Shown here one piece after another: positions 1,518-15,889 of a DNA stretch of 20,097 nt (position 1 is the first letter of the stretch; every line of letters begins with the position of its first letter). Below the pieces are notes generated by a model. It was not told the DNA's origin. It did not search any database and worked only from the letters and a program-made list of their open reading frames with translations. Made by a program: the position numbers and the translations under genes. The stretch is from a virus: IMG/VR virus record IMGVR_UViG_3300036818_000022, positions 1-20,097 of that record, one strand, 5' to 3'.

Positions 1518-3449
1518 TTATCTGTACGGGTTTTTCTTGGGCGCCGAGTCGCTTGCGAGCGGTCGGATCCCGTTCTTCTGAAAGACGCCTCGAGCCGTGG
1601 GTAAGACCGGACTCCAAGGGTCGTCTTTGCCCATGGTCGCGTGATACTGCTCGTCGTAGGTGTTGAGTTTAGCGCCCAAGACGTGCAGGTTTGTACGCGC
1701 CACGCCGGCGAGCTGCGCGGGCGAATTAGCCGATTGCAGATTCGCGGTCATGGTGTGAATTTCCTGGTCGGTAGCATTGCCCTTAAGTGCAGTCGCCATT
1801 TCGCCGGCAACGGCTGCCTTGAGCGTGTCGAAGTTGGTGACGGCGGGTTGGCCGAAGGCCGCGGCGAGCGAATTGTATGCCGCGTTCCCGGGCCGGAAAA
1901 TGCCGTTACGGAGAGCGTCCGCCGCGTCGGCGAGCTGGTCGAGGTGCACCGTCGCGGTGTTGAGGGCTTGGACGTTTTGACCCTGCTTGCCAACCGTGAA
2001 CGCGGCGCGAGCTTTGCCGCGAGTCGCGGTGTATGTGGGGTCATACTGATTGACGGCCGCCATCAGCGGGCTGAGTTCCTTGCCTCGCGGCAGGTTCGTC
2101 TGGCGTCCCTCCGCGATCGCTTTGACTTGTGCGGCCATCCCAGGCGATAGCGTCTTCAGGAACGCATCGCCCGTCAGCGGCTGTCCGTCTGGACCTGGTT
2201 GGGCAAACGCCGGCGGGTGCGGATTCAGCCCGAGGGTGCCGAGCGGATCCGCCTCGACTCTCCGGATGCCGACGTTCTGCGCCTCGAGGCCGAGCGCGAT
2301 ATCGCGTTGACGGCGTGCCGCCGCTTCATTGGTAACCGTGTTCGCGTCTCGAGCAGCGGTAAGCCCCGTGACTGTCTGCTGTTCCGGAGTGAGTGCGGCC
2401 TGGCGAATCGCGGCCGGATCGAACTTGGCAGGGAATAGCGCTTTCATGTCCGGATCGAGCGCGGCGCGCATCGCGCCGTATTCCTCCGGACTGTCGGCCG
2501 TCAGAAGCTTTTGCGCGGTGGCGGCCATCTGCGCCTGTTGAGCTTCAGCTTGTTGTTTCGGCGCTTCGTTGGCCTGTTTCTGGGCAGAGGTGGCAGCCGT
2601 ATCGGCTCGAGCCTGCGCGGTGAGCATCGGCGCCGTAGTGTGAGAAGCTACCGAGTCAATGATGGTGCGCAGGTTATCGGGATTGGCCTGCAGCGCCGCG
2701 GCAATTCGTTGTGCGTGAGCAGCGTAAGACGGCGAGCTATCCGCCATCATTTTGAGCGCGGCCAGGGCAACGGCAGGGTTGTAATCGTGTTGCTGCACCT
2801 GCCGAGCCATGGCGGCAAACTGGTCGTTTTCGTCGTCCTGCAGCTTATTAAGCGTGGACTCGGTATCGGCGCGATTCTTCGCCAGCGTGGCGAGTTTTTC
2901 CTGATTTCCGAGCACCATTTGCTTGATGCCGAAAATCGATTTTGCCTGCGCGCCGTTCCTCGCAAGTTCATCGGCGATCGCGTCCCAGTCGAGCGCGGCT
3001 GATTTACTGGCGGGAGTACTCGAGGCAGGAGCCGCACCCGGCGCAGCTGCGGCCGCCGGCGCCGCGGTTCCAGCCACGGGCCCGGCATAGGAGGGATCCC
3101 GGACCACCAGGCCCTCGGGCGTGACTGGCAGCCCGGCCGGCGAGCTGGTCGGGGCCCCACCAGGTGCGCCGGGTGCGGCGGGAGATGCTGGCGATGCCGG
3201 GCTCGAGGCCGTTACCTGGCGCTTCATGAGATCAGACAGCAGTTGCGCGTCGCGGAGATCGAGCGCGGTCTGCTGGTTGGCGTAGGTTTTCGACTGCCGG
3301 TCCTGCTCGCCGATCTGGAGTCTTAGGGTACCGGTTTGCAGGTCCTGTCGCGCTTGCTGTATCTGGAGCGCGCGAGCTTGTGCAGCTTCGAGCGGCTCGT
3401 AGTGCGACGCGCCGGCCGCGAGGATCAAAGATGGGTCTTGAGTGTCCAT
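1518..3449 (-). CDS. Putative internal virion / DNA-ejection protein in gp20 position
   Basis: 643 residues from ATG at 3449, seven bases after the previous stop, with only a weak Shine-Dalgarno. Residues 1-75 are Gln/Ala-rich and likely helical. Residues 80-150 form a Pro/Ala/Ser/Gly linker, followed by a long Gln/Ala/Asp coiled-coil-like stretch to about 390. The last 180 residues are the best conserved-looking part. They include TARGKARAAFTVGKQGQNVQ, then LNTATVHLDQLADAADALRN, a pattern I associate with podovirus virion proteins of unknown structure. There are no cysteines and no signal peptide. Position between the gp7-like and gp16-like genes suggests the gp20 role (ejected into the cell with DNA; P22 gp20 is about 471 residues). 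The functional assignment rests on synteny and composition. Confidence 0.62.
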   Translation of the reverse strand: MDTQDPSLILAAGASHYEPLEAAQARALQIQQARQDLQTGTLRLQIGEQDRQSKTYANQQTALDLRDAQLLSDLMKRQVTASSPASPASPAAPGAPGGAPTSSPAGLPVTPEGLVVRDPSYAGPVAGTAAPAAAAAPGAAPASSTPASKSAALDWDAIADELARNGAQAKSIFGIKQMVLGNQEKLATLAKNRADTESTLNKLQDDENDQFAAMARQVQQHDYNPAVALAALKMMADSSPSYAAHAQRIAAALQANPDNLRTIIDSVASHTTAPMLTAQARADTAATSAQKQANEAPKQQAEAQQAQMAATAQKLLTADSPEEYGAMRAALDPDMKALFPAKFDPAAIRQAALTPEQQTVTGLTAARDANTVTNEAAARRQRDIALGLEAQNVGIRRVEADPLGTLGLNPHPPAFAQPGPDGQPLTGDAFLKTLSPGMAAQVKAIAEGRQTNLPRGKELSPLMAAVNQYDPTYTATRGKARAAFTVGKQGQNVQALNTATVHLDQLADAADALRNGIFRPGNAAYNSLAAAFGQPAVTNFDTLKAAVAGEMATALKGNATDQEIHTMTANLQSANSPAQLAGVARTNLHVLGAKLNTYDEQYHATMGKDDPWSPVLPTARGVFQKNGIRPLASDSAPKKNPYR

Positions 3450-3456
3450 GTTGTTC

Positions 3457-4557
3457 TTAGCTGAAGGTTAAAGGAGAGTCATTGATTGCGCCGGTCACGC
3501 CGCCATTACTGCCAGCGTATGGATTGTAGCCGCCGCCCCCGCCGCCGAAAATCGCGCCGAGCGAGCCGCCCATTGACGACAAGCTAGGGATCCCTCCGGT
3601 AACTGCGCTGTTGACGAAACTTCCGATGCCGCCGAGCATGTTGTTATAGGCGTTTGCCTTTCCCAGCACACTATTGGCCTGCGCCAGGCCCGACTGAATC
3701 TGTGTGTTGCCGGCGTATTGCGCCGCGGCGTTCGCCATTTGCGCCTGTTGGGCGGCAGACTGATAGCCGAGGGTCGACGCGTATTCGTTCGACTGCATGC
3801 CCGCGTTGCCGGCGTATTGGGCGCCGCTCTGTTGGGCGTTGCCGGCGTATTCTGCGCCCTGCAGGCCGAGACCCGCGGAACTGGTCGCGCCCTGCAGGCC
3901 GAGGGAGGCCTGGCTCGTCGACGCCGCCTGTCCGGAGTTAGCCAAATTCTGTAGGTTGCCAACCGCGTTCTGCTGCTGCGTCTGGAAATTGTTGAACGCG
4001 TTCTGGTATTCGGTCGAGGCCAAGCCCTGCGTATAGTTCTGCATCTGCTTGATCGCGGCGCCGGAATTGGCGAGGCCTTGTGCGGCGAGCTGATTCTGGA
4101 GTGCCTGCTGCCCCTGCTGTAGCTGGAACTGATAGCCCGGGGTGTTCTGCAGTTGCGCCATGGTGGGCGCGAAGGTCGAGCTGAGATTTCCACCAGGTGC
4201 CAGGCCCGCGGCGAGCGTTTGCGCTGCCTGCTGGCCGGCAGCCGAAAAAGGATTGAGCCCAGCTTGCCCAGACCCCACCGCGGTGCCGATGCCCGCTTGT
4301 CCGGCGCCGGCGGCCTGCTGCGCGCCGAGAGCCGCGAGAACTGACGCCAGGGTGACGCTCTGGCCGGCCTGCTGGCCGGCGTTGAGCACTTGCCCCTGCC
4401 CGGCGCTGGTCGCGTTGGCGATGCCGGTATTGCCGGCCGCTGCCGCATTCTGAACGGTCGCCGCGGCTTGTTTGTCGGCGCCCGAGACGTCGTTTGCCGC
4501 GACGCCTTGAGCGTGGCCGCCCATGATGCCGCCGATAACGTTGGTGATGAGAGACAT
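3457..4557 (-). CDS. gp7-like DNA transfer (ejection) protein
   Basis: 366 residues from ATG at 4557. AAGGAA lies just upstream and abuts a hairpin, which supports this start. The central motif TPGYQFQLQQGQQALQNQLA, followed by a short 'NSGAAIKQMQNYTQGLASTEY' type segment, is the hallmark I know from proteins annotated as phage DNA transfer proteins, the class of P22 gp7. The rest is Ala/Gln/Gly/Asn-rich with no cysteine. Residues about 235-290 repeat the short unit (Q/E)YAGN four times. The C-terminus is glycine-rich (GGIGSF, FGGGGGGYNPY), as in gp7 proteins. In P22, gp7 is one of three proteins ejected with the genome. The gene opens a gp7-gp20-gp16-like triplet. Low complexity makes alignment to P22 weak, but motif plus order is good support. 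Confidence 0.75.
   Translation of the reverse strand: MSLITNVIGGIMGGHAQGVAANDVSGADKQAAATVQNAAAAGNTGIANATSAGQGQVLNAGQQAGQSVTLASVLAALGAQQAAGAGQAGIGTAVGSGQAGLNPFSAAGQQAAQTLAAGLAPGGNLSSTFAPTMAQLQNTPGYQFQLQQGQQALQNQLAAQGLANSGAAIKQMQNYTQGLASTEYQNAFNNFQTQQQNAVGNLQNLANSGQAASTSQASLGLQGATSSAGLGLQGAEYAGNAQQSGAQYAGNAGMQSNEYASTLGYQSAAQQAQMANAAAQYAGNTQIQSGLAQANSVLGKANAYNNMLGGIGSFVNSAVTGGIPSLSSMGGSLGAIFGGGGGGYNPYAGSNGGVTGAINDSPLTFS
3707..3852 (-). repeat. Short direct repeats inside the gp7-like gene
   Basis: The + strand 14-mer ttgccggcgtattg occurs at 3707-3720 and 3806-3819, and again at 3839-3852 with the last base changed. Each copy encodes the (Q/E)YAGN unit. A second short string, ccctgcaggccgag, occurs twice near 3859 and 3891. 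Spacing is irregular and the copies stay in frame, so this looks like slippage-type expansion of a low-complexity protein and not a DNA-binding array. Confidence 0.7.
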
Positions 4558-4585: not shown

Positions 4586-5035
4586 TTACAGTGAAATGCC
4601 GAGCAGGACCTGGTGGTGCAGCCGGCCGTCTTTTTGCCAGGAGTCAGGATTGACGCCGTATTCAGTCATGCCGGCGCGCTTCGCGAAGCGGATCGCGAGC
4701 CGGTGGTACGCGGGGCAGATCGTGACGAGACGCCGGCAGGGCGTGTAGTTCTTGACCCACGCGATAATTCCCTTGGCAGCCTCCGCGGCGCGTGCGCCCC
4801 AGGCGCAAGGCAAAAGCCGGGTGTGAATCTGCCAGCAAACATGATTCTGTGGCTCGAGGATGAAGAGCCCGAGCAGCTCGTCAGCGTCCTTAACGAGCAC
4901 ATAGCAAACCAGCGGATGCTCGAGCGGTTCGAAGCACTCACGACACGGCGCGAAATCGTCAGCCTGGTACAGGGCCGGATGCCGCATTACCTCGCCGATC
5001 AGCCGATAGTTGAAGGAGCGCTCGAAGGTCAGCAT
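4586..5035 (-). CDS. gp14-like head-assembly protein with GNAT acetyltransferase fold
   Basis: 149 residues. The ATG at 5035 is chosen because it overlaps the previous TGA as TGATG; a longer upstream extension of the same frame is only read-through of the neighbouring gene. The pattern is a small GNAT protein: a charged N-terminal helix, LLGLFILEP strand, HTRLLPCAWGARAAEAAKGI (strand plus the acetyl-CoA-loop region, here WGARAAEA in place of the usual RxxGxG/A), then PAYHRLAIRFAKRAGMTEYG, the typical last helix and 'neighbour' motif. I recall P22 gp14 and related phage proteins (DUF2824 type) having this same outline, and the gene sits exactly where gp14 sits, between tail hub/needle and gp7. 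Seven cysteines are present. Catalytic activity is uncertain; a structural or assembly role is as likely as acetyl transfer. Confidence 0.72.
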   Translation of the reverse strand: MLTFERSFNYRLIGEVMRHPALYQADDFAPCRECFEPLEHPLVCYVLVKDADELLGLFILEPQNHVCWQIHTRLLPCAWGARAAEAAKGIIAWVKNYTPCRRLVTICPAYHRLAIRFAKRAGMTEYGVNPDSWQKDGRLHHQVLLGISL

Positions 5036-5790
5036 CAGTAGAGAATCGCGAACGTGTGTTTCCCGCCGGACCCGAGACAGATGGAGCCTTGAGTCAGAAA
5101 GACGCCCGTACGGCTGCCTGAAGTGCCGAAATTGCCGGCGGTAATGGCATCGCTGTAGGTGCCGGTGACGCTGGAAACATCGTCGTAGCCGGCGAGCGTG
5201 CCTCCATTGAAGCCGCTTCCGTATGACGCGGTCCACATTATCGTGCCGGTGCCGATTGTCCAGTACGGTGTTCCGGGGGCTAGAGTTGTCGCGCCCGCGA
5301 AGACTGCCATAACCTCAGACGGGGACGTGAACGAGACGGGATTGATGTATGCGTCCGGGCTGATGCCGTTGCTCGTTATGCCGGTGCCGCTTGTTCCCGT
5401 CCCAGGAACGCCGATGGCCGGACAAACGGAATAGGTCGAATTGGTAGAGGAGAACTCAGCCACGAAGATTGACCGGCCGGCGCTCACCGTAACGGTGTTT
5501 GAGCCTGCATGGATGTTGACCGCGGCGAAAATTTCGATTGGGTCAGAAGCTGACACGGTGGCGCCCTGGATCAGAGTGTAAGTGTTCCCCTGAGTGTCAG
5601 ACACTGTTCCGGCCGCAGGGAAATAGACGATGGCAATAATGACATTGCCCGCGGTGTTCACTGATGAGAACGCCTGCGTGAGCGACGGCGTTGAACTGAA
5701 CGTTACGACAGGCGACTGCTGGACGAATGCCCAGTTAGTCGCAAGCGCCGGCGCGCAGAAGCTCAACAGCAATAAGAGTAAGCGCGTCAC
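5035..5790 (-). CDS. Secreted beta-rich protein, probable fibre or surface protein
   Basis: 251 residues from GTG at 5790, which overlaps the previous stop as GTGA and has GGAG eight bases upstream. An upstream extension of the frame is rejected because it lies inside the preceding gene and would bury the signal peptide. The N-terminus, VTRLLLLLLSFCAPALA, is a textbook Sec signal peptide with likely cleavage after ALA. The mature part is Thr/Ser/Gly-rich, all beta in character, with two cysteines. The segment NVIIAIVYFPAAGTVSDTQG followed by NTYTLIQGA and NTVTVSAG resembles a beta-sandwich of unknown function that I have seen in secreted bacterial and phage-associated proteins. It lies between a receptor-binding-type gene and the gp14-like gene. 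Function is unknown; binding or display outside the cytoplasm is inferred. Confidence 0.65.
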   Translation of the reverse strand: MTRLLLLLLSFCAPALATNWAFVQQSPVVTFSSTPSLTQAFSSVNTAGNVIIAIVYFPAAGTVSDTQGNTYTLIQGATVSASDPIEIFAAVNIHAGSNTVTVSAGRSIFVAEFSSTNSTYSVCPAIGVPGTGTSGTGITSNGISPDAYINPVSFTSPSEVMAVFAGATTLAPGTPYWTIGTGTIMWTASYGSGFNGGTLAGYDDVSSVTGTYSDAITAGNFGTSGSRTGVFLTQGSICLGSGGKHTFAILY

Positions 5791-6950
5791 TGTTGGCACT
5801 CCAACACGACGGATAGCGCCGTGGTTCCTCCGGAGATCGTCTTGAGGTTGAACCCGAAAACATCGCTTTTGGTGACCGCCGTGGTCCATCCCGTGAGCGC
5901 GCTCGAGCCGGCCGTGGTGCTGGTCGATACCGCGGGATAAGCAGAGGCGACGATCGAGTTAGAAATCGTGGGGATTCCCGCCGTGGGAGCCGCATATACC
6001 ACTGCTGACTGGATCGCGGCCGAGCTGGTCAGCACGAGCGCCGTGGAGCTCGTTACGCTCGCGATCGTGTACAGTGTGCCGTTAATCGTGATGTGAGTGC
6101 CGGCCGCATCGGACGGGAAGGTGCCCCCAGAAACCCACGTTACGTTCGTTCCGGACGTGTTCACCGTACCGGTGGCGCCCGCCCAGTCATTCGGAGCGGT
6201 GGCGCGCTTCCAGACGTCGACGCTGGCCGTCCCCTGGTCAACCGTCATATCCCACTGCTTGAGGGTGCAGCCGAACGGGACGGTGACGTATTGCGTCGTT
6301 CCGGAAGACAGGGCAGAGCCGCCGGTTTGACCGAAAGCCATGCCGATCGCGCGGAGGGAACCGGCCGCAGTTGAAACGGTTACCGTGCCAGAGCCGTTGT
6401 CGACAAGCGTGATGCCGCCGCCGGCCGCCAGGTTGAGCAGAGTCTGCAGGCCGTTGTTTGTGCCGTTGGTTTGCAGCGTGAGTGAGCCGCCGGAAGAATC
6501 GAGGGTCACCGTACCAGATCCGTTATCGGTCAGAGTCATGTTCGACCCCGCGGCGAGATTGAGGATCGACTGCGAGCCGTTGTTGACGCCGTTGGTTTTG
6601 AGCAACAGGGAGAGCGCCGCGGCGTCGATCGTGATCTGTCCCGATCCGTTGTCAGTGAGGGCGATGTTGGAGCCTTGCTGGAGATTGAGCAGCGACTGTG
6701 ACCCGTTCGCCGTGCCGTTCGTCTCGAGGCTCAGGCCCGACGATCCGCTGAAGAAACAATTCGTGCCCGTGGGCGTGATGCATTTAATGAGCCCGCTCGA
6801 CAGGTCAGCCCACGTCCTGAAATAGCCGGTGCCGGGCAAGCCTGGTGCGGAGCTGCGTACCTGCCAGTCCTGGTAGCCCACTACGGTCGCCGCGATCGCG
6901 ACGCCGGCAGCCGCGAGAGTCGCGGCGATGATTTTCGTTCGTTTTGTCAT
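5787..6950 (-). CDS. Putative receptor-binding / tail fibre protein with N-terminal signal anchor and mosaic repeats
   Basis: 387 residues. ATG at 6950 is preferred over an upstream start because GGAA lies six to seven bases before it and it immediately opens MTKRTKIIAATLAAAGVAIA, a signal peptide or membrane anchor. Order: anchor 1-25; a 40-residue region with two cysteines; three copies of a 35-residue repeat (LxTNGxxNGxQxLLNL, then TxxDNGSGxxT) at about 74-108, 117-151 and 158-192; then a beta domain at about 203-387. That domain matches a phage fibre-tip type: TQYVTVPFGCTLKQWDMTVD, then SVDVWK, SNSIVASAYP, LTGWTTAVTKSDVFGFN, LSVVLEC. A 60-residue module at about 258-319, also found twice in the tail hub, interrupts it between SVDVWKRATAP and the ISNSI strand. 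Four mature cysteines. Binding of a host surface ligand is inferred. Confidence 0.68.
   Translation of the reverse strand: MTKRTKIIAATLAAAGVAIAATVVGYQDWQVRSSAPGLPGTGYFRTWADLSSGLIKCITPTGTNCFFSGSSGLSLETNGTANGSQSLLNLQQGSNIALTDNGSGQITIDAAALSLLLKTNGVNNGSQSILNLAAGSNMTLTDNGSGTVTLDSSGGSLTLQTNGTNNGLQTLLNLAAGGGITLVDNGSGTVTVSTAAGSLRAIGMAFGQTGGSALSSGTTQYVTVPFGCTLKQWDMTVDQGTASVDVWKRATAPNDWAGATGTVNTSGTNVTWVSGGTFPSDAAGTHITINGTLYTIASVTSSTALVLTSSAAIQSAVVYAAPTAGIPTISNSIVASAYPAVSTSTTAGSSALTGWTTAVTKSDVFGFNLKTISGGTTALSVVLECQQ
5994..6176 (-). repeat. Module A copy 3 (inserted in the receptor-binding-type domain)
   Basis: This about 61-residue unit follows the pattern VNTSGTNVTWVSGG, SDAAGTHITINGTLYTIASV, TSSTALVLTSSA. 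It is the same module found twice in the tail hub gene at 9302-9700. The resemblance holds at base level, for example the + strand acccacgttacgttcgttcc here versus acccaggtgacggccgtgcc there. Confidence 0.8.
6369..6731 (-). repeat. Module C array, three copies
   Basis: Three tandem 35-residue units lie at about 6624-6731, 6495-6602 and 6369-6476. The consensus is LxTNGxxNGxQxLLNL, then GSNxxLTDNGSGxxT, separated by short hydrophobic linkers. A fourth copy is in the neighbouring collagen-like gene at 7325-7432. The DNA copies are visibly alike, which points to duplication and exchange between the two genes. Confidence 0.82.
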
Positions 6951-6961
6951 TTGAAGTTCCG

Positions 6962-7600
6962 TTACGCGACGACAACTACTCGGCCGGTAAAAGCCGCGCC
7001 GAAGGTCAGGGTGAGTACGGCCGAGCTTGTGACGGTCACTGATTCCGGCTGCACCGCGACTCCGGATCCGTCGTAAACCCACCAACCGACGTCAGTTGAG
7101 GCGAGCCCATGCGTCACGGCGACCGTAGTCTGTGCGGTCCAACCGGTGGTGTATTTGTTGAGCGATCCGGGTGGTCCGGTTGGCCCCGCTGGGCCGGTTG
7201 CGCCCGCTGGACCTGTTGCTCCCGTTGCTCCCGTGGCGCCAGTTGGGCCGGCCGGCCCTACTGGGCCTGTAGCCCCGGCGGGCCCGGTGGGTCCGGTAGG
7301 CCCTGCAGGTCCTGTCGTGCCGACGCTCGCGATGGTGACCGTCCCGGTTCCGTTGTCGGTAATCGTGACATTCGAGCCCTGCGCCAGATTGAGCAGCGTC
7401 TGCGACCCGTTGTCGACGCCGTTGGTCTGTAACTCGAGCGCACTGAATCCCTCGAGCAGCGACTGGAAAAACAGGAACCAGACGCGCGTCATTTTGCCGA
7501 GCGACGACATGCCCGGGCCGTCCCACATATCGGAGCGCAGCGGGACAACGGGTTTCGCCGGCGGGTTCGCAGTAAAACTTGTTCCCGTGGTGACGCCCAC
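6962..7600 (-). CDS. Collagen-like trimeric fibre protein, candidate tail needle or fibre
   Basis: 212 residues from GTG at 7600, three bases after the tail hub stop, with GGAG about ten bases upstream. N-terminus 1-55 includes [16 protein letters not shown], a hydrophobic amphipathic helix seen at the start of several phage fibre genes. One module C repeat lies at 57-92, then 16 uninterrupted Gly-X-Y triplets at 97-144, then one module B beta unit at 150-212 ([19 protein letters not shown] to [15 protein letters not shown]). Gly-X-Y runs form collagen triple helices, so the protein is probably a trimer. There is no signal peptide and no cysteine, unlike the gene after it. It sits directly downstream of the tail hub, where P22 encodes its trimeric needle gp26 (about 233 residues), so a needle-like role is a reasonable inference without sequence support. 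Confidence 0.72.
6965..7153 (-). repeat. Module B copy 4 (C-terminus of the collagen-like protein)
   Basis: This about 63-residue beta unit carries VTHGL, a WVYDGSG turn, QPESVTV and [13 protein letters not shown]. It matches the three tandem units in the tail hub gene (7832-8428). Here it forms the C-terminal tip of a collagen-like stalk. Confidence 0.78.
7169..7312 (-). repeat. Collagen-like Gly-X-Y repeat tract
   Basis: Sixteen in-frame Gly-X-Y triplets ([12 protein letters not shown] and GPP types) run without interruption. The repeating 9-base DNA units are imperfect. Such tracts are hypervariable in length in phage and bacterial genes, so length may differ between relatives. Confidence 0.93.
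7325..7432 (-). repeat. Module C copy 4
   Basis: A single [16 protein letters not shown]-type unit, followed by [15 protein letters not shown], lies just upstream of the collagen tract. It matches the three-copy array at 6369-6731 in the next gene. Confidence 0.82.
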
Positions 7601-7603
7601 GGC

Positions 7604-10126
7604 TTACATGCTCCCCGCGGTTGATTCGAGGTAGGCGTTAATGAAAGCGACTTTCCCGCTCGTCAGATAGCGAACCCTGAAAACGCGATCGCGGGAGGAT
7701 CCCAGCCGGCGCCAGATTACCCGCGTTGCATACGCGCCAGGCAGACCTGTAAGCGCGTAATGCGGGATCCCGAAAGTATGGCCGCCGTCGTCAGACCAAT
7801 CGAGGATGATAAACGGCTGAGTCTGAATTGTGGAGGCCCACACAACCACATAGCCGGTGAACGCGCCCCCAAATTTGAGCGTGACGGTATTCGTCGAGCT
7901 CACCAGCAACTGTTCCGGTTCGACGAGCAGGCCGCCGGCGTCGTAGCACTGAACCTCCACCGCGGTGGTGCCCAGGTTGTGCGTCGCGACGAAGTTCGTC
8001 TGGTTCGCGAAAGCGCCCAGATAGGCTCCCTCGATGACGACAATCGTGCCGCCGGTGACGGCCGCGCCGAAAGTGAGAACGACCTGATTAGGCCCGAGGG
8101 CGGTAAGCGTCTCAGGCTCAATCTGCAAGCCGGTTGAGTCGTAGACGTTCACGATCACTTTGACAGTGCCCAGCCCATGAGTAACCGTCGCCGAGTTGCC
8201 GCTAAAGTTCGTGGTGTAGCTGGTTTTGCCCGGGGTGCCTTTGATGACGACGACGTAGCCAGTGAACGGCGCGCCGAAAGTCAGGTTCACTGTGTTCGCG
8301 TCGATAATGTTCGTCTTTTCGGCCTCAGTCGCGATCGCGGACGCGGAGAAAACCTGGATGCAGACGGCGAGCGTCCCCAGGTTATGTTTCACAACCACGC
8401 TGGTAGTGTTGGCGAAGGCCTGCACATAGCCGTCTCCCATGACGCCCGCGCCGCCGGCGCCCGCTTCCATGTCGAGCACGAACCGGTGATAGAAAGTGTT
8501 GTTGTTCTGGAACGGTGAATTGGTCGACGTGCCGGACGGGTTCGCAAGCTGCAGCATCGGGCCGGAAACGTGCGGCGCCGCGCGCTCATGGTAGATTGGC
8601 GTGCCGACGTCGTCGTAATTCTCGGTGTCGAGGGTGTATAGCTCGCCGGTGTCCCAATCGCCTGCGATGTGCAGGCCGAAAACAAACCCGTGCGTTGCAT
8701 AGCGCGTACGGTTCAGGCGGGTGCCGTCCCACCAGCCGCGCTGATGCCAGAGCTTCTCGGTGAAATCGTAAACCCAGGTGGTGTTTTGGGAAGGGAACGA
8801 GACAACCCAGAAATCATGCCCCTGGTCGCTGTAGGCGAACGCGATCGCATCGTCGACGGATCCCCCCAGCCACCAGGCCGTTTCGACCGCATGCGTCGAG
8901 ATGCGCTCCGGAATGAAGCCGTTGGCTGCGTAGGCCATCACACGGCCGCGGGCATCCCCGCCGAGCCAAGCCACGGTGCCAGCTACCCGCGTTGGGGTGT
9001 ACTGCGCGGCCAAGCCCATTTGCACGAAGGCGCCCGCGATGCGCTGGAACGGGAACGTTGCCGCGCCCGTGTTGGCCCAGACTTCGATGGTTTTTGTGCC
9101 AAAGAGCCAAAGCTGTTCGTGGTCGGCGAGCAACGCGAGGATGTTATCCGGGTAGGCTTCTTTTTCGGCGAAGTCGAGCGGGTTCCAGCTATTTCCGTTG
9201 AGTACGGCCGAAATCTGAAACTTATTGGTGAAGGCCTTCGAGACGATGTAATAACCGTCGAGATAAGCCCCCGTCCCTGCATCCACTTGAAACTGCGAGC
9301 GATATCCCACATTGCTCTGCGTGCCAGCGGACGTCGTTAGCACCAGCGCAGTGGGGCTTGTCACGCTCGCAACCGTGTAATAAACGCCGTTGATGATGAT
9401 CGTATTGCCGACGTTTGAGGCGTCGAACTTATCGCCGGAAACCCAGGTGACGGCCGTGCCGGACGTGTCTACCGCGCCGATGCCGTTCGAGAACCAGGCC
9501 GGCTGTGCGCCGCCGGGCCCGTTGTAAGTCGCGTTGCTCAGCGTGCCGGCGGACGCGGTCAGCACCAGGGCCGTGGAGCTGGTTACGGTGGCAATCGTGT
9601 AGCTAGTCCCGTTGAGGACGATCACCTGGCCGGCCGCGTCCGCGGGGAAAGGATCGCCGGAAACCCAAGTGACGTTAACACCGGTGACATTCACGATACC
9701 GGTGTTTGTGGCCCAGTCGACAGGGACGCTTCCACTTCCGCCAGGGCCGCCGCCGTCGATGTAGGCGTTTCCCGCCGACACGATCATGAGCTGGGTGCCG
9801 TTCTCGAACATCAGAACGGGCGAATTAGACGCGTCATTGCCGACGTTGCCGCGGACGTTGAAGGTGCCATCGTCGAACACCTGGTAATAGGTGTCGCCGG
9901 CGACGACAAACAGCGCGTCCTCGCCGACGAAGATGCCGCGGACGGGCGACGTGGGCAAGGTGGTAAATGCGGCGCTCCCGGGCGCGTTCATGAGCGCGGC
10001 GCGGTTCTTTGCCGTGCCGCTCTCGGCCGACTCAAAGTACAGATTGACGCAGGTATCCGCCGCCAGATTTGGCGTGAGTGCGGCGTAACTTCCGCCGACG
10101 AAATTGTCAAAGGTCTGGGCGCCCAT
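7604..10126 (-). CDS. gp10-like tail hub (packaged DNA stabilisation) protein with two repeat-module insertions
   Basis: 840 residues from ATG at 10126; the 46-base gap upstream shows no clear Shine-Dalgarno. Residues 1-135 match the start of P22 gp10-type hubs: FVGGSYAALTPNLAADTCVN, LYFESAESGTAKNRAAL, PVRGIF, YYQVFDDGTFNVRG. The core at about 277-560 has the beta-propeller-like strings LLADHEQLWLFGTKTIEVW, AWLGGDARGRVMAYAANGF and WVYDFTEKLWHQRGWW. The end (769-840) has LDWSDDGGHTFG and RVIWRRLGSSRDRVFRVRY, again typical. P22 gp10 has about 472 residues. The excess is explained by two insertions: two module A units at about 141-276 and three module B units at about 567-765; without them roughly 500 residues remain. 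The hub joins the adaptor ring to the needle and tailspikes. It follows the three adaptor genes, as expected. Confidence 0.82.
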   Translation of the reverse strand: MGAQTFDNFVGGSYAALTPNLAADTCVNLYFESAESGTAKNRAALMNAPGSAAFTTLPTSPVRGIFVGEDALFVVAGDTYYQVFDDGTFNVRGNVGNDASNSPVLMFENGTQLMIVSAGNAYIDGGGPGGSGSVPVDWATNTGIVNVTGVNVTWVSGDPFPADAAGQVIVLNGTSYTIATVTSSTALVLTASAGTLSNATYNGPGGAQPAWFSNGIGAVDTSGTAVTWVSGDKFDASNVGNTIIINGVYYTVASVTSPTALVLTTSAGTQSNVGYRSQFQVDAGTGAYLDGYYIVSKAFTNKFQISAVLNGNSWNPLDFAEKEAYPDNILALLADHEQLWLFGTKTIEVWANTGAATFPFQRIAGAFVQMGLAAQYTPTRVAGTVAWLGGDARGRVMAYAANGFIPERISTHAVETAWWLGGSVDDAIAFAYSDQGHDFWVVSFPSQNTTWVYDFTEKLWHQRGWWDGTRLNRTRYATHGFVFGLHIAGDWDTGELYTLDTENYDDVGTPIYHERAAPHVSGPMLQLANPSGTSTNSPFQNNNTFYHRFVLDMEAGAGGAGVMGDGYVQAFANTTSVVVKHNLGTLAVCIQVFSASAIATEAEKTNIIDANTVNLTFGAPFTGYVVVIKGTPGKTSYTTNFSGNSATVTHGLGTVKVIVNVYDSTGLQIEPETLTALGPNQVVLTFGAAVTGGTIVVIEGAYLGAFANQTNFVATHNLGTTAVEVQCYDAGGLLVEPEQLLVSSTNTVTLKFGGAFTGYVVVWASTIQTQPFIILDWSDDGGHTFGIPHYALTGLPGAYATRVIWRRLGSSRDRVFRVRYLTSGKVAFINAYLESTAGSM
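7832..8428 (-). repeat. Module B array, three copies in the tail hub
   Basis: Three tandem 64-66-residue units lie at about 8237-8428, 8027-8224 and 7832-8023. Each starts VxHNLGT or VTHGLGT, continues VxVxVYDxxGLxxEPExL in the better copies, and ends VxLTFGAxFTGYVVV. They are inserted just before the conserved hub C-terminus. A fourth copy ends the collagen-like protein. Confidence 0.82.
9302..9700 (-). repeat. Module A array, two copies in the tail hub
   Basis: Two units lie at about 9521-9700 and 9302-9484, each with VTWVSGD, a GxxIxxNGxxYTxAxVTS strand pair and TALVLTxSAGTxSN. They interrupt the hub after the conserved N-terminal region. The third copy lies in the receptor-binding-type gene at 5994-6176. 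Similarity is visible in the DNA as well as in the protein. Confidence 0.82.
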
Positions 10127-10172
10127 TAAAAGCTGGTAATTGCCTGTCGAAGAGTACTAGCGGAATCGTCTT

Positions 10173-10910
10173 TCAGCGGATGTATGAGCCAGTCAAGTAG
10201 CTCCAGCCGCCGCCGTACTTGTTGCCGGTGATTGCGCCGTCGCAGAGGAGCACGGGCGCCGGCGCGTTGAGGGACTGGATATACATCTTCGATTCCTTGG
10301 CCATGGCGAGCACGTCCTCACGGACTTCCTTCTGCCACTCCGGAGCGAGTCGCACGGCGAGGTTGTAGCGGATCGCGTCCTCATAGCCCGGCGGGAACGA
10401 TAGCGAGTCGTCGAGCTGTCCGGAGGTGAAATTGCCCGTCAGCGCCTGCCAGGTATAGAGAATCAGCGGAATAGTGATGGTCGGAATCGGCCACAAACTG
10501 AGGTTCGCGTTGGGGTACGCGTTGTCGTTGTAGATGCCGGTGGGAATCGGGCTGGTGATGTTCTTAATCCGCAAGTCTTCCCACTCGCGTGTGGTCATCA
10601 TCCCGAGGGGGAGCTCCGGGTCATACTGGCCGTTTGGTGTGTACAGCACCGCGGCGCGGTCAATGCGGATCGGCCGCGGCGCGTCGAAGTCCGGCGCGCC
10701 AGGCCCGATCTGATAGGTCTGTTGGTTCGCGACCAGGTTATAGGTGTTGCGCTGAATGTCGAAGATATTTAGCCGGTCGATCGACCAGCTTGAAATCATG
10801 GCATTCAGCACCACGAGCGAATCGGTGATGTCGTCGACGTTCGGCCCTTGCCCTTCGCGCAGCACGCCGACAAGACGAAAGCTCGAGCGGACGAGGTCGC
10901 GCAGCGTCAC
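10173..10910 (-). CDS. Head-to-tail adaptor, gp4-like, third paralogue
   Basis: 245 residues from GTG at 10910, which overlaps the previous TGA as GTGA. N-terminal helices, DLVRSSFRLVGVLREGQG then LNAMISSWSIDRLNIFD, match the start of P22 gp4 (DLVRAALRKLGV..., then the alpha helix with A.W). The rest follows the pattern shared with its two upstream paralogues: YQIGPGAPDFDAPRPIRIDR, W near 130, GIYNDNAYPNANLSLWPIP, ILYTWQAL, LSFPPGYEDAIRYNLAVRLA. The C-terminus is its own (GNKYGGGWSYLTGSYIR). gp4 forms the dodecameric ring under the portal and plugs onto gp10; this copy lies next to the gp10-like gene. P22 gp4 is about 166 residues, so all three copies have an extra central beta region. Confidence 0.78.
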   Translation of the reverse strand: MTLRDLVRSSFRLVGVLREGQGPNVDDITDSLVVLNAMISSWSIDRLNIFDIQRNTYNLVANQQTYQIGPGAPDFDAPRPIRIDRAAVLYTPNGQYDPELPLGMMTTREWEDLRIKNITSPIPTGIYNDNAYPNANLSLWPIPTITIPLILYTWQALTGNFTSGQLDDSLSFPPGYEDAIRYNLAVRLAPEWQKEVREDVLAMAKESKMYIQSLNAPAPVLLCDGAITGNKYGGGWSYLTGSYIR

Positions 10911-11614
10911 TGCTTGTTGCCTTTCGTGCCCTGGTTCTCAGCGGCGGTCTGGTTGGCAATGTCGTCTTGGGGAATCATGCGGGCATTGAGTGCTTCGATG
11001 GCGGCCTTGCTGCCCTCGGCAATCGTCAGGACGGCCGCGGGGATTTGGAGCCCAAACGCGGCGCCGATCTCAACGGCCAGGTTATAGCTGAGGGCGCGGA
11101 GATAGCCCGGGGGCATCGCGAGAGTGTCACCGAGCGTCGCGAACTGAGTAAACGGCGTCCAGGTGTAAATCTCGAGGTGCGTGTTTGTCGCCGGCGTCGG
11201 GAACAGGTAGATAGTCGCGAGCGGGAAGGCCTGATCGTAATAGAGCTTTTTGGGGATGATCGACTGATCCCCGTAGGTCTCTTGAGAGGCCCACTCGTTC
11301 TGTCCGATGATTTTCATCGGGAACCGAGCCGAGGCGCCTTCGACGGTCGCGACAATGTTCGCGGATTCGATCGCGGTGGGCCGCGCCGCGTTGAACACGC
11401 CGCCCGTGCCGATGGTGTAGCTCTCGGTTCCCGCGGTGAGCGCGTACGTCGCGGCCTGCACGGTGAAAACGGTGAGCCGCTTCGTGCTCCACGAATCGAG
11501 CATGTTATTCGCGAGGCCCATTACGACGCCGGATTCAGCGGCGCCGGCGGACCGGCCCGCGCCAAGGCGGCCGACAAGAGTGAGGCTTTGGTTAACGAGG
11601 TCTTGAACTGTCAT
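10907..11614 (-). CDS. Head-to-tail adaptor, gp4-like, second paralogue
   Basis: 235 residues from ATG at 11614, nine bases after the previous stop, with AAGGA (overlapping that stop) seven bases upstream. The pattern is shared with both neighbours: DLVNQSLTLVGRLGAGRS, ANNMLDSWSTKRLTVF, YTIGTGGVFNAARPTAIES, KKLYYDQAFPLATIYLFPTP, LEIYTWTPFTQF, LAMPPGYLRALSYNLAVEIG. The C-terminus is short and polar (AENQGTKGNKQ). It overlaps the third copy by four bases, so the three copies form one translational unit. No cysteine. Ring-forming adaptor function is inferred from gp4; which ring position this copy occupies cannot be told. Confidence 0.78.
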   Translation of the reverse strand: MTVQDLVNQSLTLVGRLGAGRSAGAAESGVVMGLANNMLDSWSTKRLTVFTVQAATYALTAGTESYTIGTGGVFNAARPTAIESANIVATVEGASARFPMKIIGQNEWASQETYGDQSIIPKKLYYDQAFPLATIYLFPTPATNTHLEIYTWTPFTQFATLGDTLAMPPGYLRALSYNLAVEIGAAFGLQIPAAVLTIAEGSKAAIEALNARMIPQDDIANQTAAENQGTKGNKQ

Positions 11615-11623
11615 GGAGGTTCC

Positions 11624-12340
11624 TTACTGTTGGGGCTGAACGGGCGCCGGCGCCGGCGGCAAATCGGAGGGCTCTTTGCCCATGGCGTTGGAGGTGTTGA
11701 GCGCGATCACTTCCGCCTTAGCCTTTGCGGCGGCATCGGCGAGGCCCGCCGCGGCGGCCTGCGCCTGGCTGCCGTATTCGGGCGCCAGGTCGATCGCGAG
11801 CGCGTATACGAGCGCCCGGAAGTAGGGCGGCGGCATTGAGAACGTGTCGGTGATCGCCGAGAACTGCTGGAGCTGCTGCCAGAGATAAAGATCGAGCGTT
11901 GGGGCGCCGCCGGTGCCGCTGGGGATCGGCCAGATATTGAGGTTGGCGAGCGGAAAGGCGTTGTCGTTGTACAGCACTTTCGGCAGGCGGCCGGTGAGGG
12001 ATTTTTCCTCGATCTCGGCCCAGTCCTTCGCGCCCACGATTTTGATCTCGTGGCGCAACGTGTCGGGCGTGATGATGCCGGCTTTCTCGATCTTCAGCGG
12101 GCGCGAGGTATTGAAGTTGCCGCCGGTGCCGATGGTGTAGGTCTGCTGGGTCGCGACTAACGAGCCCTGGAAATTGACGATCTGGTAGATGGTGGCTTGT
12201 TCAGCGCTCCACGCTTCCATCAGCGCGTTGACGGACTGCAGCGCGTCGGTGTTCTCGTCGCTATTGGGAGTTTCCCCGGCCGCGAGCACGCCGATTTTAC
12301 GAAGGGCTGAATTGATGAGGTCAGAGCAAAGGTAAGACAT
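11624..12340 (-). CDS. Head-to-tail adaptor, gp4-like, first paralogue
   Basis: 238 residues from ATG at 12340 with GGAG six bases upstream, itself preceded by a hairpin. Its N-terminus, DLINSALRKIGVLAAGETPN then VNALMEAWSAEQATIYQ, is the closest of the three to P22 gp4 (RAALRKLGV, EAMMAEW). It continues YTIGTGGNFNTSRPLKIEKA, PKVLYNDNAFPLANLNIWPI, LDLYLWQQLQQF, FSMPPPYFRALVYALAIDLA. The C-terminal tail is Ala-rich, then Pro-rich (LPPAPAPVQPQQ). Being first in the cluster and most gp4-like, it is the best candidate for the copy that touches the portal, but this is inference. Confidence 0.8.
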   Translation of the reverse strand: MSYLCSDLINSALRKIGVLAAGETPNSDENTDALQSVNALMEAWSAEQATIYQIVNFQGSLVATQQTYTIGTGGNFNTSRPLKIEKAGIITPDTLRHEIKIVGAKDWAEIEEKSLTGRLPKVLYNDNAFPLANLNIWPIPSGTGGAPTLDLYLWQQLQQFSAITDTFSMPPPYFRALVYALAIDLAPEYGSQAQAAAAGLADAAAKAKAEVIALNTSNAMGKEPSDLPPAPAPVQPQQ

Positions 12341-12390: not shown

Positions 12391-12645
12391 TTACGCGCCC
12401 GCGGGCCAGACGCCGACGTGCGCGGCCCAGAGTTCAGGGTCAAGAGTGGACTGATACTCTCTCACCAGGCCGACGACGGCGCATACATCCTCAACAGGCT
12501 TTGGCCAGGGCATCCGCCCGCCACGCCAGAGCCATGAAATAACTCCAGTCGCCGCGATCGGCCTGCCGGGGTGATTCGCCGCCGCTTCCTCGCGCGCCTT
12601 CGCTTTCAGGTAACGCGCCAGGCGCTTTTCAGAAGCTGCAGACAT
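12391..12645 (-). CDS. Small hypothetical protein between fibre cluster and adaptors
   Basis: 84 residues from ATG at 12645, which overlaps the previous TAA as TAATG; no Shine-Dalgarno is visible, so translation is probably coupled. The first 30 residues are a basic, Ala-rich helix (KRLARYLKAKAREEAAANH). The rest has several tryptophans (ISWLWRGG, ELWAAHVGVW) and one cysteine. There is no signal peptide, in contrast to the gene just before it. I do not recognise the family. Codon usage looks like its neighbours and the overlap argues it is real. Confidence 0.6.
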   Translation of the reverse strand: MSAASEKRLARYLKAKAREEAAANHPGRPIAATGVISWLWRGGRMPWPKPVEDVCAVVGLVREYQSTLDPELWAAHVGVWPAGA

Positions 12646-13136
12646 TAGTGGCGATACAAGACTAAGAGCACGTCGCCAGGTTGCGGAATCGACGCAGTGT
12701 TAAAGGTGATGCTCGAGCCGGAAAGCACGTAGTCAGCAGAGGCGCCGGCCGTCTGCAGCAGCCCGTTTTTGAAAATCTGGAGACTCGCCGCGGGATTCGG
12801 GGCAGCTACCAGGGTGAACGTCGCGTTAACGCCGTCGATCGCGCCGCCGGGTACTTCCCCATCTACGAAGACAGGCGCCGGCGCCGGCGTGGCCAGCAGG
12901 CGCAAGGTCGGGGGTGTGGTGGTTGTGTCGAGCTTGAACGCCGAAGCGTCAATCTGCGCGCAAATCGTTTGTGTCGAGACGGAGCCGGCGCCCGGGAGCT
13001 TAACCGGCGAGCCCATCACCACCACAATCGCGTTTACGCCGGCGGGGCATATCTTGACCTGCGCGGCGTCCAGGGTCGTTGCGTTCTGCGCGAACAACGA
13101 AACAGCAAAAAGCGAGAGCGAGAGGATTTTGAGCAT
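12645..13136 (-). CDS. Secreted small protein with C-terminal phage fibre-type domain
   Basis: 163 residues from ATG at 13136, six bases after the previous stop. MLKILSLSLFAVSLFAQ is a signal peptide with probable cleavage near FA/Q. Residues 20-90 contain two cysteines (KICPAG, TICAQ) that could pair, then a Thr/Pro/Ala linker. Residues about 95-163 carry GAIDGVNATFTLVAAPNPAA, LQIFKNGLLQ, ADYVLSGSSITF and PQPGDVLLVLYR. I know this pattern as a widespread small beta domain at the ends of phage neck or tail fibre proteins. Export of such a domain is unusual. It may decorate the virion or the cell surface; neither is shown here. Confidence 0.7.
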   Translation of the reverse strand: MLKILSLSLFAVSLFAQNATTLDAAQVKICPAGVNAIVVVMGSPVKLPGAGSVSTQTICAQIDASAFKLDTTTTPPTLRLLATPAPAPVFVDGEVPGGAIDGVNATFTLVAAPNPAASLQIFKNGLLQTAGASADYVLSGSSITFNTASIPQPGDVLLVLYRH

Positions 13137-13142
13137 AGAATT

Positions 13143-14909
13143 TTACCGGAGAATGTTTCCGCCGCGGAAGGTCAACGCGGGAGTCGAGGAAGTGGTCAGG
13201 TAGGAAGCAGCGCCAAGGTCGACGGCTGCGCCGTGGCGTGCAAGATTGCCTTGGTAATCAATTAGACCGAGGTCGATGGCTTCAATCCAGGGGTCAACGC
13301 CAGTCCCGATCGCGACTGATCCTGGCGAGAGGTCAAGATAGTGCATCGAGATGCCGCTGGGTAAAAACCCTCCTGTCGGAGGTGAAAACCCCAAAAAATT
13401 CAGGAACCCGGCATCAGAAACGAGCCCGTAATTAATTCCGCTCAGTGTCTCGAAGCCGAGAGCCTGCCATCCTGCTAAAGAAGTCGTGTTTACGTAAGAG
13501 CTGCCTGTATCGTTCGATATTAGGAGCGAGCCGGAAGAAGCATCGTAGAGATTCTGGAGAATAACGGGAGAGCCAAGATGAGTGGGGTTCGATGCGGTAT
13601 TAGCATGATAGATCGCGATGCCTCCCGTGACTTTGAAAATGTTATCGAGTATCTGGACATTCAGGCTGGAAGTGCCGCCGGCCCAAGTTTCCCAATTGAT
13701 CGCTGAAGGTACGCCGACGGCAGCGCTGTCTATATAAATTGAATTGTTGAATATCGGAACTCCATTCAACGCCCCGCCGAGCCTGATGGCCCCCTGCTCA
13801 GACGTGCCCCCAGTATTGTTCCCGCGCACATCGTTGTAACTGACGTTGTGGTGAATGCGTGCATTTGAAGTGAATCCGCCGTACGACCCAACCTGGATGG
13901 CTGAGCCGACGTTGTTATAGCTAAGGTTGTATGCGACATCTCCGTTTTGCGTGTCCTGGTCGATATCAATTGCCGACCCGTCAAAATGCGTCGAGCATCG
14001 TGTGTTGGCGATCTCATTATTGGAGATCCTGAAGTTTCTGCTGCTGGCGAGACCTATGGCGGTCGATCCTCCGAACGTGAGTCCGGACTGTGCCCCGCCA
14101 AAGCCGGCGATGCCAGAGAGATAGTTTCGCTCGATCGTAATGCCGGTGACGTTGCCGACGTCGATCCCTCCTGCTTCGGTCTTTCCCGAACCATGGACAC
14201 CTCCCGTTCCGGACTGTGGATCTCCCGGAATGTTGGTCACGGTGTTGTACCCGATATAGACGTTCGTCGTCTGATTCACCGGACCTCCAGCATTCGCGTT
14301 GTACCCCAGAACATTGATTCCGAACGACAGGTCGTTCGTCACTGAATTATTGGAGATCCGGACGCCGCTGTATCCGAGCGTGCTTGCGGAAGCGGCATAG
14401 CCCACCACAATCCCGTACCAAAAGCCGGATACCGAATTGCCGGAGATATCGATGCTGCGCAGTTGGTTTCCACTTGTACGAGTAGAAAGGATGAATATGC
14501 CCGTTCCTCCGTTCAGCACGGTGATGTTCGGTTCAGTCCCGGTCCAGCCGGATCCGACCAAGGCGAGGTTGGAAACCTTAAGGAACTCGCAGTTGGTACA
14601 GTCAAGCCCGTCTCCGGTTCCCCCGTTAATGGTTGCCTTTCCCGTTCCGTAGCTGCCCACGGTGATCGGCGCGGCGGCTGATCCAGTTACCGAAAGGGAA
14701 ATCGTGCCACTAAAAGTGTCTCCACCGTGGAACAAGATGGAATCCCCGGCGCTATAAGCGCCCGCATTGACCTTCGCGATTGTCTGCCAGGGGACTGAGG
14801 AAGAAGTGCCGTTATTGGCGTCCGCTCCGGAATTCGAAACATAATACGTCGCAGCCAAAACTGGCTGGCAAGCCAACAGCAGAACTAAAAACTTCAGGAT
14901 GTTTCCCAT
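13143..14909 (-). CDS. Secreted right-handed parallel beta-helix protein (tailspike or pectate-lyase fold)
   Basis: 588 residues from ATG at 14909, eight bases after the previous stop, with no clear Shine-Dalgarno. MGNILKFLVLLLACQPVLA is a signal peptide; LLAC at 11-14 also resembles a lipobox, so either ordinary cleavage after VLA or lipidation at Cys14 is possible. The mature start (TYYVSNSGADANNG, then PWQTIAKVNAG and GDSILFHGGDTFSG) is typical of secreted beta-helix proteins. Then come repeating rungs with asparagine turns: ISNNSVTND, YIGYNTVTN, IERNYLSG, ISNNEIANT, HHNVSYNDV, LDNIFKVTG. No catalytic residues can be assigned. P22's own tailspike is a beta-helix that cuts O-antigen, but it has no signal peptide and lies elsewhere. 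Candidate roles are glycan binding or cleavage at the envelope. Confidence 0.75.
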   Translation of the reverse strand: MGNILKFLVLLLACQPVLAATYYVSNSGADANNGTSSSVPWQTIAKVNAGAYSAGDSILFHGGDTFSGTISLSVTGSAAAPITVGSYGTGKATINGGTGDGLDCTNCEFLKVSNLALVGSGWTGTEPNITVLNGGTGIFILSTRTSGNQLRSIDISGNSVSGFWYGIVVGYAASASTLGYSGVRISNNSVTNDLSFGINVLGYNANAGGPVNQTTNVYIGYNTVTNIPGDPQSGTGGVHGSGKTEAGGIDVGNVTGITIERNYLSGIAGFGGAQSGLTFGGSTAIGLASSRNFRISNNEIANTRCSTHFDGSAIDIDQDTQNGDVAYNLSYNNVGSAIQVGSYGGFTSNARIHHNVSYNDVRGNNTGGTSEQGAIRLGGALNGVPIFNNSIYIDSAAVGVPSAINWETWAGGTSSLNVQILDNIFKVTGGIAIYHANTASNPTHLGSPVILQNLYDASSGSLLISNDTGSSYVNTTSLAGWQALGFETLSGINYGLVSDAGFLNFLGFSPPTGGFLPSGISMHYLDLSPGSVAIGTGVDPWIEAIDLGLIDYQGNLARHGAAVDLGAASYLTTSSTPALTFRGGNILR

Positions 14910-14917
14910 TTGATGTT

Positions 14918-15889
14918 TTACTGCGCGTACAGATCGAATACTGAACCAGCGACAAAGTTGCTGCCCCCAGAAAGCTGGACAAGGATGCTGTTAATTGCGG
15001 CTGTGCTATTCCAAAATCCGCTAAATGTGAACACTCGAATTCCTCCAGCGCCTCCTGTGGCCGATACTCCGCCAGACGTACCAACTGCCGTTTTCAAAAA
15101 CGTCGTGCCAGAATAATTTGGAATATCCATGATGCTGCTGCCTGCTGCGTTTGCCAGAGCAGTGCCGCAGGACACATCACCAATCGCCAGCCCTGACGAG
15201 GAGCTCACGCTCTGTCCGGCGCTAAGGGAGGCCACAGACGCCACAAGGTATTGGCGAGAATAATTCGCTCCGGTGTCGGAATTGAACTGCAGGTATACGC
15301 CGTCATCGGTTTGCGATGCGCTGCACCTCGCGGAGATCACCAGCCGAAGATTGCGATAAGTCGATGGGATAGACGAGAAGGTGACGCTCGATGCTGGTGA
15401 GGCTAACACCTGCTCCGAGAGGAGGACATACCCGCCAGGTGTCGGTTGCATGTCGGTTACAGTTCCAGCGCTATTCACCACACTGAAGTGATTCGAGTTG
15501 GCGCTGTTACAGAACGGCGTCACGTAGCCCGAGGAAGGAAGCGGGCTTGGCGTAGTGCCACATAAATAGTCGATCGCCCCAGCGCCGCCGCCCGCGGGCG
15601 CAATCGTCAGGGGCCCGGTGATCGTCGGAGAGTTCGCGGTAACCGGTTGCCCGCTGCTGTTCGATCCAAGCAAAGGAGCCGACGCGGGAACCGCTGCACC
15701 GTTGACCTTGACGACGCCACCAGTAGCGCTGAGATCGCCAACCGCGCCAACCGCGCCAGTCTGCCCGAATACGCTCGTTACGGCGCCGCCGCTCGAGCTC
15801 GAGCCGCCGCCATTCGAGGAAGGCACGCCGGTAACGCTTTGCGCCTGCAGCGCGACGGCCGCTATCAAAAACAAAAGCGCGTTTCTCAT
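14918..15889 (-). CDS. Secreted tail-fibre-like protein
   Basis: 323 residues. ATG at 15889 is chosen over an in-frame start six codons earlier because it forms an ATGA overlap with the previous stop and begins the signal peptide MRNALLFLIAAVALQAQ. Next is a Ser/Gly linker, then VTSVFGQTGAVGAVGDLSAT and KVNGAAVP, a motif common near the start of phage fibre proteins. The C-terminal half (about 155-323) carries VLLSEQVLASPASSVTFSSI, PSTYRNLRLVISARC, LQFNSDTGANYSRQY and ends FDLYAQ. That is a known type of phage fibre-tip beta-sandwich. Four cysteines are in the mature part. No Shine-Dalgarno is evident, so coupling to the gene before is likely. Receptor or glycan binding is inferred. Confidence 0.7.
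   Translation of the reverse strand: MRNALLFLIAAVALQAQSVTGVPSSNGGGSSSSGGAVTSVFGQTGAVGAVGDLSATGGVVKVNGAAVPASAPLLGSNSSGQPVTANSPTITGPLTIAPAGGGAGAIDYLCGTTPSPLPSSGYVTPFCNSANSNHFSVVNSAGTVTDMQPTPGGYVLLSEQVLASPASSVTFSSIPSTYRNLRLVISARCSASQTDDGVYLQFNSDTGANYSRQYLVASVASLSAGQSVSSSSGLAIGDVSCGTALANAAGSSIMDIPNYSGTTFLKTAVGTSGGVSATGGAGGIRVFTFSGFWNSTAAINSILVQLSGGSNFVAGSVFDLYAQ

Follow-up and report, generated by a model that had tools for sequence, protein, structure and literature searches.

A trimeric needle is encoded by the gene that follows the hub in P22 (gp26), SU10 (gp18) and Pan3 (Pan3_08), all three of which have been characterized structurally. The P22 genes run in the order 10-26-14-7-20-16, with gp14 falling in phrog_651 and gp7 in phrog_598. 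In SU10, gp18 follows the nozzle protein gp17, and the needle was seen at 15 Å and modelled, according to the available part of the source text (PMC9509320). The hub of the cyanophage Pan3, Pan3_07, matches 9vyg_M (6 chains) end to end. Pan3_08 matches 9vzi_B along its whole length and, with its first 69 residues, 9vyg_S, both of which are entered in the PDB as 'Needle protein' with 3 chains each. In Pam1, the homolog of the Pan3 needle, Pam1_10, is the second gene after the hub and not the first. The tip of the P22 needle is exchangeable, with foldon and HS1-knob hybrids described in the accessible portion of PMC3741392, and EPclA, a collagen-like phage protein, is a stable trimer without hydroxyproline according to excerpts of PMC3368898. 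A search of the open literature on collagen together with tail needles, or with needles and podoviruses, found no collagen needle in the accessible parts of those papers; subscription journals lay mostly outside the search.

Here we analyze an IMG/VR virus fragment of 20,097 bp, an incomplete genome that we refer to in its entirety as the window. Its minus strand carries a P22-type morphogenesis cassette that consists of a scaffold gene, a coat gene (phrog_283), three adaptors of the gp4/SU10 type, a gp10-like hub and a collagen-like ORF, beyond which lie two extra ORFs, then a phrog_651 gene and then a phrog_598 gene. The features that bear on the argument are as follows.

3457..4557, minus strand: gp7-like DNA ejection protein (phrog_598, E=6.4e-11)
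4586..5236, minus strand: P22 gp14-like head morphogenesis gene, GNAT-like (phrog_651, E=1.5e-6)
5787..6950, minus strand: next ORF, in which the LQTNG domain occurs three times; mechanical listing to 7085, although by eye the ATG is probably at 6950
6962..7600, minus strand: collagen-like protein of 212 aa in the putative needle slot, GTG start (ORF; PF01391 match)
6965..7159, minus strand: its C-terminal beta tip, residues 148-212 (homology to three hub domains; model)
7160..7321, minus strand: its 18 Gly-X-Y triplets, residues 94-147 (triplet count; Pfam Collagen)
7322..7441, minus strand: its small repeat domain LQTNG..NGSQ..LNL, residues 54-93 (likeness to the repeats of the next gene)
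7442..7600, minus strand: its N-terminal anchor, residues 1-53 (anchor profile match; predicted helix 39-51)
7604..10126, minus strand: P22 gp10-like hub, head closure Hc3, 840 aa (phrog_578, E=2.9e-94)
7823..8443, minus strand: three tandem tip-type domains in the C-terminal part of the hub (homology to the tip of the collagen protein)
10173..12340, minus strand: three tandem adaptor paralogs of the gp4/SU10 type (phrog_12985, phrog_637; SU10_adaptor in the middle one)

The hub also matches Phage_stabilise (PF11134, E=2e-6) and, among PDB chains, 9vyg_M best (E=4.8e-20), which makes it a homolog of the Pan3 hub, followed by 7eeq (E=1.9e-17). Apart from the two extra ORFs, the order of hub, collagen ORF, phrog_651 and phrog_598 is that of P22 10-26-14-7 when read by PHROG, so the collagen ORF occupies the gp26 slot, as the first-pass annotation of this DNA had proposed. 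The GNAT-like gene matches Acetyltransf_3 at E=1.5e-4, under the Pfam cutoff. As the best reading of the locus, we lean toward a needle-like appendage that is plugged into the hub and has a collagen shaft.

Other features of the cassette were observed in passing. The window has three adaptor paralogs in tandem where the records of P22, Pam1 and Pan3 list one. Between the coat and adaptor genes lie five ORFs whose hydrophobic starts resemble Sec signal peptides in a simple hydropathy test (12645-13136, 13143-14909, 14918-15907, 15886-16218 and 16446-17156). By eye, 5035-5889 and 5787-7085 also seem to start in this way, although they failed the test, and two ORFs after the hub of a Bryobacterales contig (L315) also have signal-like starts, by eye. 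Exported proteins within a virion cassette would be unusual. By eye, two copies of the repeat WVSG..FP.DAAG...I.NG..YTIA.VTS.TALVLT lie in the N-terminal half of the hub, and the repeat also occurs in 5787-6950; its presence in both the hub and the gene downstream of the collagen ORF is another sign that domains have been shuffled within the cassette.

The collagen ORF begins 3 bp after the hub stop codon, with GGGGAG 10 nt before its GTG start. That a collagen-like ORF stands beside the hub was the central observation of the first-pass annotation, and it is borne out by the Pfam Collagen match on residues 94-146 (PF01391, E=4.1e-9, with a score of 36.5 bits where the cutoff is 27.2). The count of 16 triplets given there should be 18, which run from G94 to L147 without interruption; among 20,000 shuffled versions of the protein, the longest run reached was 8. 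The segment has low pLDDT in a monomer prediction and would be ~154 Å long as a triple helix. At the DNA level it has a period of 9, with units 69-82% alike, which would be expected of a chance or artefactual repeat without structural meaning. The shuffles, the four further loci that have collagen in this position (below) and the glycine codons (GGC 6, GGA 6, GGG 5, GGT 1) make such an origin extremely improbable, as the mixed codons suggest that the Gly-X-Y period is kept at the protein level and not by DNA repetition alone.

In the predicted model (pLDDT 72.9), the anchor has ~38 mostly extended residues followed by a hydrophobic helix at residues 39-51, in agreement with the hydrophobic N-terminal helix noted earlier. 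The beta tip noted with it gives a good prediction when modeled alone (pLDDT 91.7). Two features were absent from that account: the LQTNG domain at residues 54-93, which is 55-68% identical to the three repeats of the next gene, and the occurrence of the tip domain inside the hub. This ~65-aa beta domain is present in three copies in the hub and one at the tip of the collagen protein, a 3+1 layout shared by L009, the nearest other virus. A Foldseek search with the tip had no match at E<=0.001 (best E=0.075). With VIA-align, the highest Z was 6.9, to pseudaminidase (2w38/3h6j), with the phage tail proteins 8ck1, 9efk and 7eea in the next rows; as Z is below 8, this is perhaps merely a common arrangement. 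No 28-residue window of the collagen protein passed a heuristic coiled-coil filter, and tblastn against 50,697 phage records returned nothing, in a search where low-complexity filtering may hide collagen.

Direct homology to gp26 found no support in profile searches or in profile-profile comparisons with controls. When the gp26 N-terminus was compared with the anchor over three iterations, the best gp26 was equalled or outscored by 100, 123 and 25 of 1353 control ORFs, and in the profile-profile comparison gp26 ranked behind 24 of 34 control families. With the gp26 N-terminus below significance, we call the collagen protein needle-like and do not file it under the gp26 family; that it works like a needle we hold to be somewhat probable. 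The likeness of the Pan3 needle's N-terminus to the anchor is no more than suggestive. The two align in register, with an HMM E-value of 2.0 that 15 of 1353 control ORFs equalled or bettered, and the profile-profile comparison gave E=0.0018 at a probability of 15%, with one of the 34 control families higher. Attempts to bridge the two found no confirmed relative with the Pan3 needle as query, and seven loci with the Pan3 hub as query, in none of which a downstream gene matched the anchor significantly. BLAST gave no alignment between the Pan3 needle and the 48-aa anchor protein of Pam5, and the latter had no needle among its PDB matches (9l08 at E=0.007, with single domains not significant, and 7b5h at E=0.9).

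The needle could instead be another gene, outside the contig or elsewhere in the cassette, with the collagen protein an accessory. The record is only a 20-kb fragment, the Pan3-type needle of Pam1 is second after the hub, and the Pam1 record gives the name 'needle' to a phrog_598 protein, a family that the window also encodes. However, P22 has gp26 as well as a phrog_598 protein, and in Pam1 it is Pam1_10 that is homologous to the Pan3 needle. Profiles of the needle PHROGs 1219 and 1030 found P22 and, at E<=1, matched neither the window nor eight other records, which include three complete phages (BA3, P26218 and MW202557) and G003, a contig of 36.4 kb that bears collagen. These profiles are permissive, as judged by their frequent matches in control genomes (11 of 14 for PHROG 1219 and 5 of 14 for PHROG 1030). 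Nor was a needle PHROG found in a contig that is 99.6% identical to the window over 11.2 kb and reaches ~10 kb further upstream. A simple heptad score, on which gp26 reaches 0.94, was at least 0.6 in only three window ORFs, the scaffold (0.75), 19624-20097 (0.71) and 1518-3449 (0.60). The first-pass annotation had raised the prospect of a separate gp26-like coiled-coil needle; the incomplete window record, the near-identical contig and the three complete relatives, in which an anchored protein is present, are all without a needle PHROG, and we consider a needle encoded by another gene quite improbable.

A side observation concerns Pam1 itself (L154, loci 8272-9003 and 9421-10305). Its annotated 'needle', Pam1_12, is an ejection-type protein of phrog_598 and has no match among PDB chains at E<=1. 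The annotation of the Pam1 record was guided by a published structure, according to the accessible part of PMC9382816. It may name the wrong gene as the needle, though its authors cite the structure.

To learn what occupies this slot in other viruses, we surveyed the genes that follow hubs of this family. The set comprised 65 viral-contig loci, the best 80 of 493 confirmed hub relatives (5 of which were already in the set), one further locus, 10 sequences from genomes and five named phages, which with the window gave 157 sequences. A hub was recognisable in 156; without 18 duplicate hubs and 9 loci lacking a readable next gene, 129 loci remained, which still include the near-identical pairs L170/L171 and L209/L210. 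A family search with the collagen protein itself (best 80 of 456) returned mostly matches to the collagen stretch and was left out of the hub survey, although its loci are included among the 9109 ORFs searched with the anchor profile. That profile was built from the N-termini of 27 hub-next genes, with the window and L009 left out.

The profile matched 42 of the 9109 ORFs at E<=1, and 37 of these are hub-next genes, namely the 27 training sequences, three near copies and seven others that include the window's collagen ORF (E=4.6e-4). The rest are an L011 gene at a greater distance downstream of its hub and, elsewhere, four weak matches (E 0.04-0.7). At E<=0.01, the anchor is present in the hub-next gene of 89 of the 129 distinct loci, or 62 of 102 when training loci are set aside; the 40 without it include P22 and Pam1. 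Iterating the profile added 12 hub-next genes for a total of 101, and the two best control ORFs in this search proved to be anchored genes slightly further downstream (L315 and L208). When 27 records were searched with the anchor alignment, 21 had exactly one anchor, two had a second, partial match (E=9.5e-4 and 0.014) and four had none; one of these four, G001, is truncated ahead of the gene. Judged from these profiles, the N-terminus of the collagen protein is a conserved anchor encoded beside the hub.

We also read the hub neighborhoods of 18 named phages. In nine, the gene annotated next to the hub carries the anchor at E<=0.01 (Pam5, P26218, BA3, ctfPj964, VvAW1, 1.184.A, ctNMl277, ctn9Y15 and X14), and three of these served as training sequences. 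Pseudanabaena phage Pam5, Rhodoferax phage P26218 and Shewanella phage X14 are cultured. The match is marginal in phiAX1 (0.013) and PBR31 (0.03), and P22, Pan3, Pam1 and ctkAd229 have none. In PAE2 (L335), DSL-LC05 (L345) and cta1H496 (L347), anchor-like ORFs just after the hub were seen by eye, either unannotated or with another start. In Pam5, the 48-aa product of Pam5_10 (L337, 5993-6139), directly after the hub, consists of little but the anchor (E=1.6e-8) and is possibly a very small tail plug.

The same survey bears on whether the anchored protein might be an adaptor or platform that links tailspikes or long fibers to the hub and is itself no plug. The hub-next gene of PBR31, with its weak anchor match, is annotated 'tail fiber protein, tail spike adaptor protein', and the anchor has a PDB match to 9ndy, an 'LTF platform protein' with 6 chains. 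However, that match has E=0.26, and a free beta tip at the end of a 15-nm collagen stalk would be unexpected in an adaptor, a role that we regard as improbable for this protein.

What follows the anchor varies among relatives from very little to coiled coil, beta domains, beta-helix or collagen. The 81 complete anchored proteins found with a search floor of 60 aa span 63-1501 aa. By the heptad score, a coiled-coil-like segment is present in 24 of the 89 anchored proteins, as compared to 120 of 1353 other ORFs tiled mechanically over the same loci, not all of which are genes; BA3_08 and X14_37 are relatives of the coiled-coil kind. Collagen, defined as at least 8 Gly-X-Y triplets, is present in 5 of the 89 and in 3 of the 1353 (Fisher p=3.9e-5 if relatives are treated as independent). 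The five are the window (18 triplets), L223 (13), L053 and L314 (11 each, with sister hubs) and L230 (10), the last of which also has a coiled-coil-like segment. Despite their triplets, the four proteins other than that of the window are under the PF01391 cutoff or do not match it. Two of the three other collagen ORFs (L022 and L024) lie 0.3-0.8 kb after the hub and are not the anchored gene. Three glycine-rich candidates were set aside: L031 lacks the anchor, and its 9 triplets, which lie in a glycine-rich stretch, were not counted as collagen, and L160 and L177, with 7 triplets, are below the threshold.

On a tree of 87 hubs, from which two short hubs were dropped, the collagen label must be gained or lost four times, and the branches with good support by themselves already require four such changes. 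L009, with a hub 63% identical to that of the window, has nearly the same start, anchor and tip but is without the collagen and LQTNG segments. With the anchor conserved, the part after it variable and collagen lacking in L009, the distal part appears to be exchanged while the anchor stays. The sequences themselves show where the gene lies, how its domains are arranged, that many relatives keep the anchor and that collagen recurs at this place. Whether the tail needle of P22-type short-tailed phages is truly an interchangeable slot, with a conserved anchor followed by repeated exchange of a bare plug, coiled coil, beta-helix or collagen, and with an axial collagen shaft gained or lost at least four times, we regard as evenly balanced.

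The size range of the anchored proteins also bears on the main rival reading, in which the anchor would sit on the outside of each hub subunit or at an interface, and the tail would bear as many as six short peripheral fibers, trimers with a collagen stalk and an adhesive tip, as in other phage collagens. Some anchored relatives are indeed spike- or fiber-sized, including a 633-aa beta-helix protein in L315, a 590-aa protein annotated as a tail spike in ctn9Y15 and others of 876-1501 aa. The best PHROG matches of the collagen protein are tail fibers, although these are driven by the repeat, and tip domains also occur within the hub. In other phages, EPclA collagen is described as a side or tail-end fiber in the available text of PMC3368898, and an antibody to Sp5 ORF67 labels the tail end, according to the accessible part of PMC5155283. 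On the other side, the needles of P22, SU10 and Pan3 hold this same gene position, and anchored proteins as short as 48 aa in Pam5 and 63 aa elsewhere suggest that a plug fits better than a fiber. In addition, MW202557 has a further 673-aa protein annotated as a colanidase, with spike-type Pfam matches under the cutoff, and the G003 virus has further fiber- or spike-like ORFs, by eye. Weighing these points, we consider the peripheral fiber somewhat unlikely.

Returning to the needle-like reading, we propose that the collagen protein would form a trimeric tail-tip appendage, seated where a P22-type short tail has its needle. An extended arm and an aromatic helix, which make up the first ~53 residues, would hold it in the mouth of the gp10-like hub and close the DNA channel as a plug. 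The Gly-X-Y triplets would build a triple-helical shaft of ~15 nm in place of an alpha-helical coiled coil, and the beta tip, of the same family as the hub domains, would touch the cell envelope. We speculate that loss of the protein on contact then opens the channel for DNA. The trimer, the plug, the shaft and the release are all steps that we infer.

If this is correct, a needle for DNA ejection can do without a coiled coil as its shaft, and a simple sequence rule, the hub followed by the anchor, would find needle candidates in uncultured short-tailed phages where none is annotated. It would also raise the question of whether the annotated needle of Pam1 is the right gene. Among known systems, the window's protein is like EPclA/B and ORF67 of the Stx phage Sp5 in that collagen triplets occur in proteins of short-tailed phages, though the latter are described as side or tail fibers in the portions available of PMC3368898 and PMC5155283. 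It is like SU10 gp18 in the place of its gene, as that of gp18 follows the nozzle gene; the gp18 trimer plugs the nozzle channel and ends in a tip of another fold, a beta-prism (accessible text of PMC9509320). Unlike this protein, gp18 is a coiled coil, and SU10 has a nozzle without clear similarity to the window hub and no anchor match. The Pan3 needle has a homologous hub, a gene directly after it and 3 chains in its PDB entries, but it contains no collagen and its similarity to the anchor is not significant by HMM.

A further comparison is with the tail needles of P22 (gp26) and Sf6 (PHROGs 1219 and 1030). As in those phages, the gene stands directly after a gp10-type hub and before gp14/gp7, and the lengths given in the first-pass annotation, 212 aa here and 233 aa for gp26, are right. 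Also shared are an N-terminal arm ahead of the shaft and a distal part that can be exchanged, the latter as described in the available portion of PMC3741392. The idea of a collagen needle as a change of material at a conserved site is partly supported, in that the slot is right. This protein has no detectable sequence homology to gp26, and collagen is one of several materials in the slot. A collagen needle would fit the tip exchange known from P22 and would suggest that mechanics, in length and stiffness, outweigh material. The tip here is a small beta domain other than that of gp26 or Sf6, and the shaft is built of Gly-X-Y triplets where that of gp26 is a coiled coil of 11-16 heptads.
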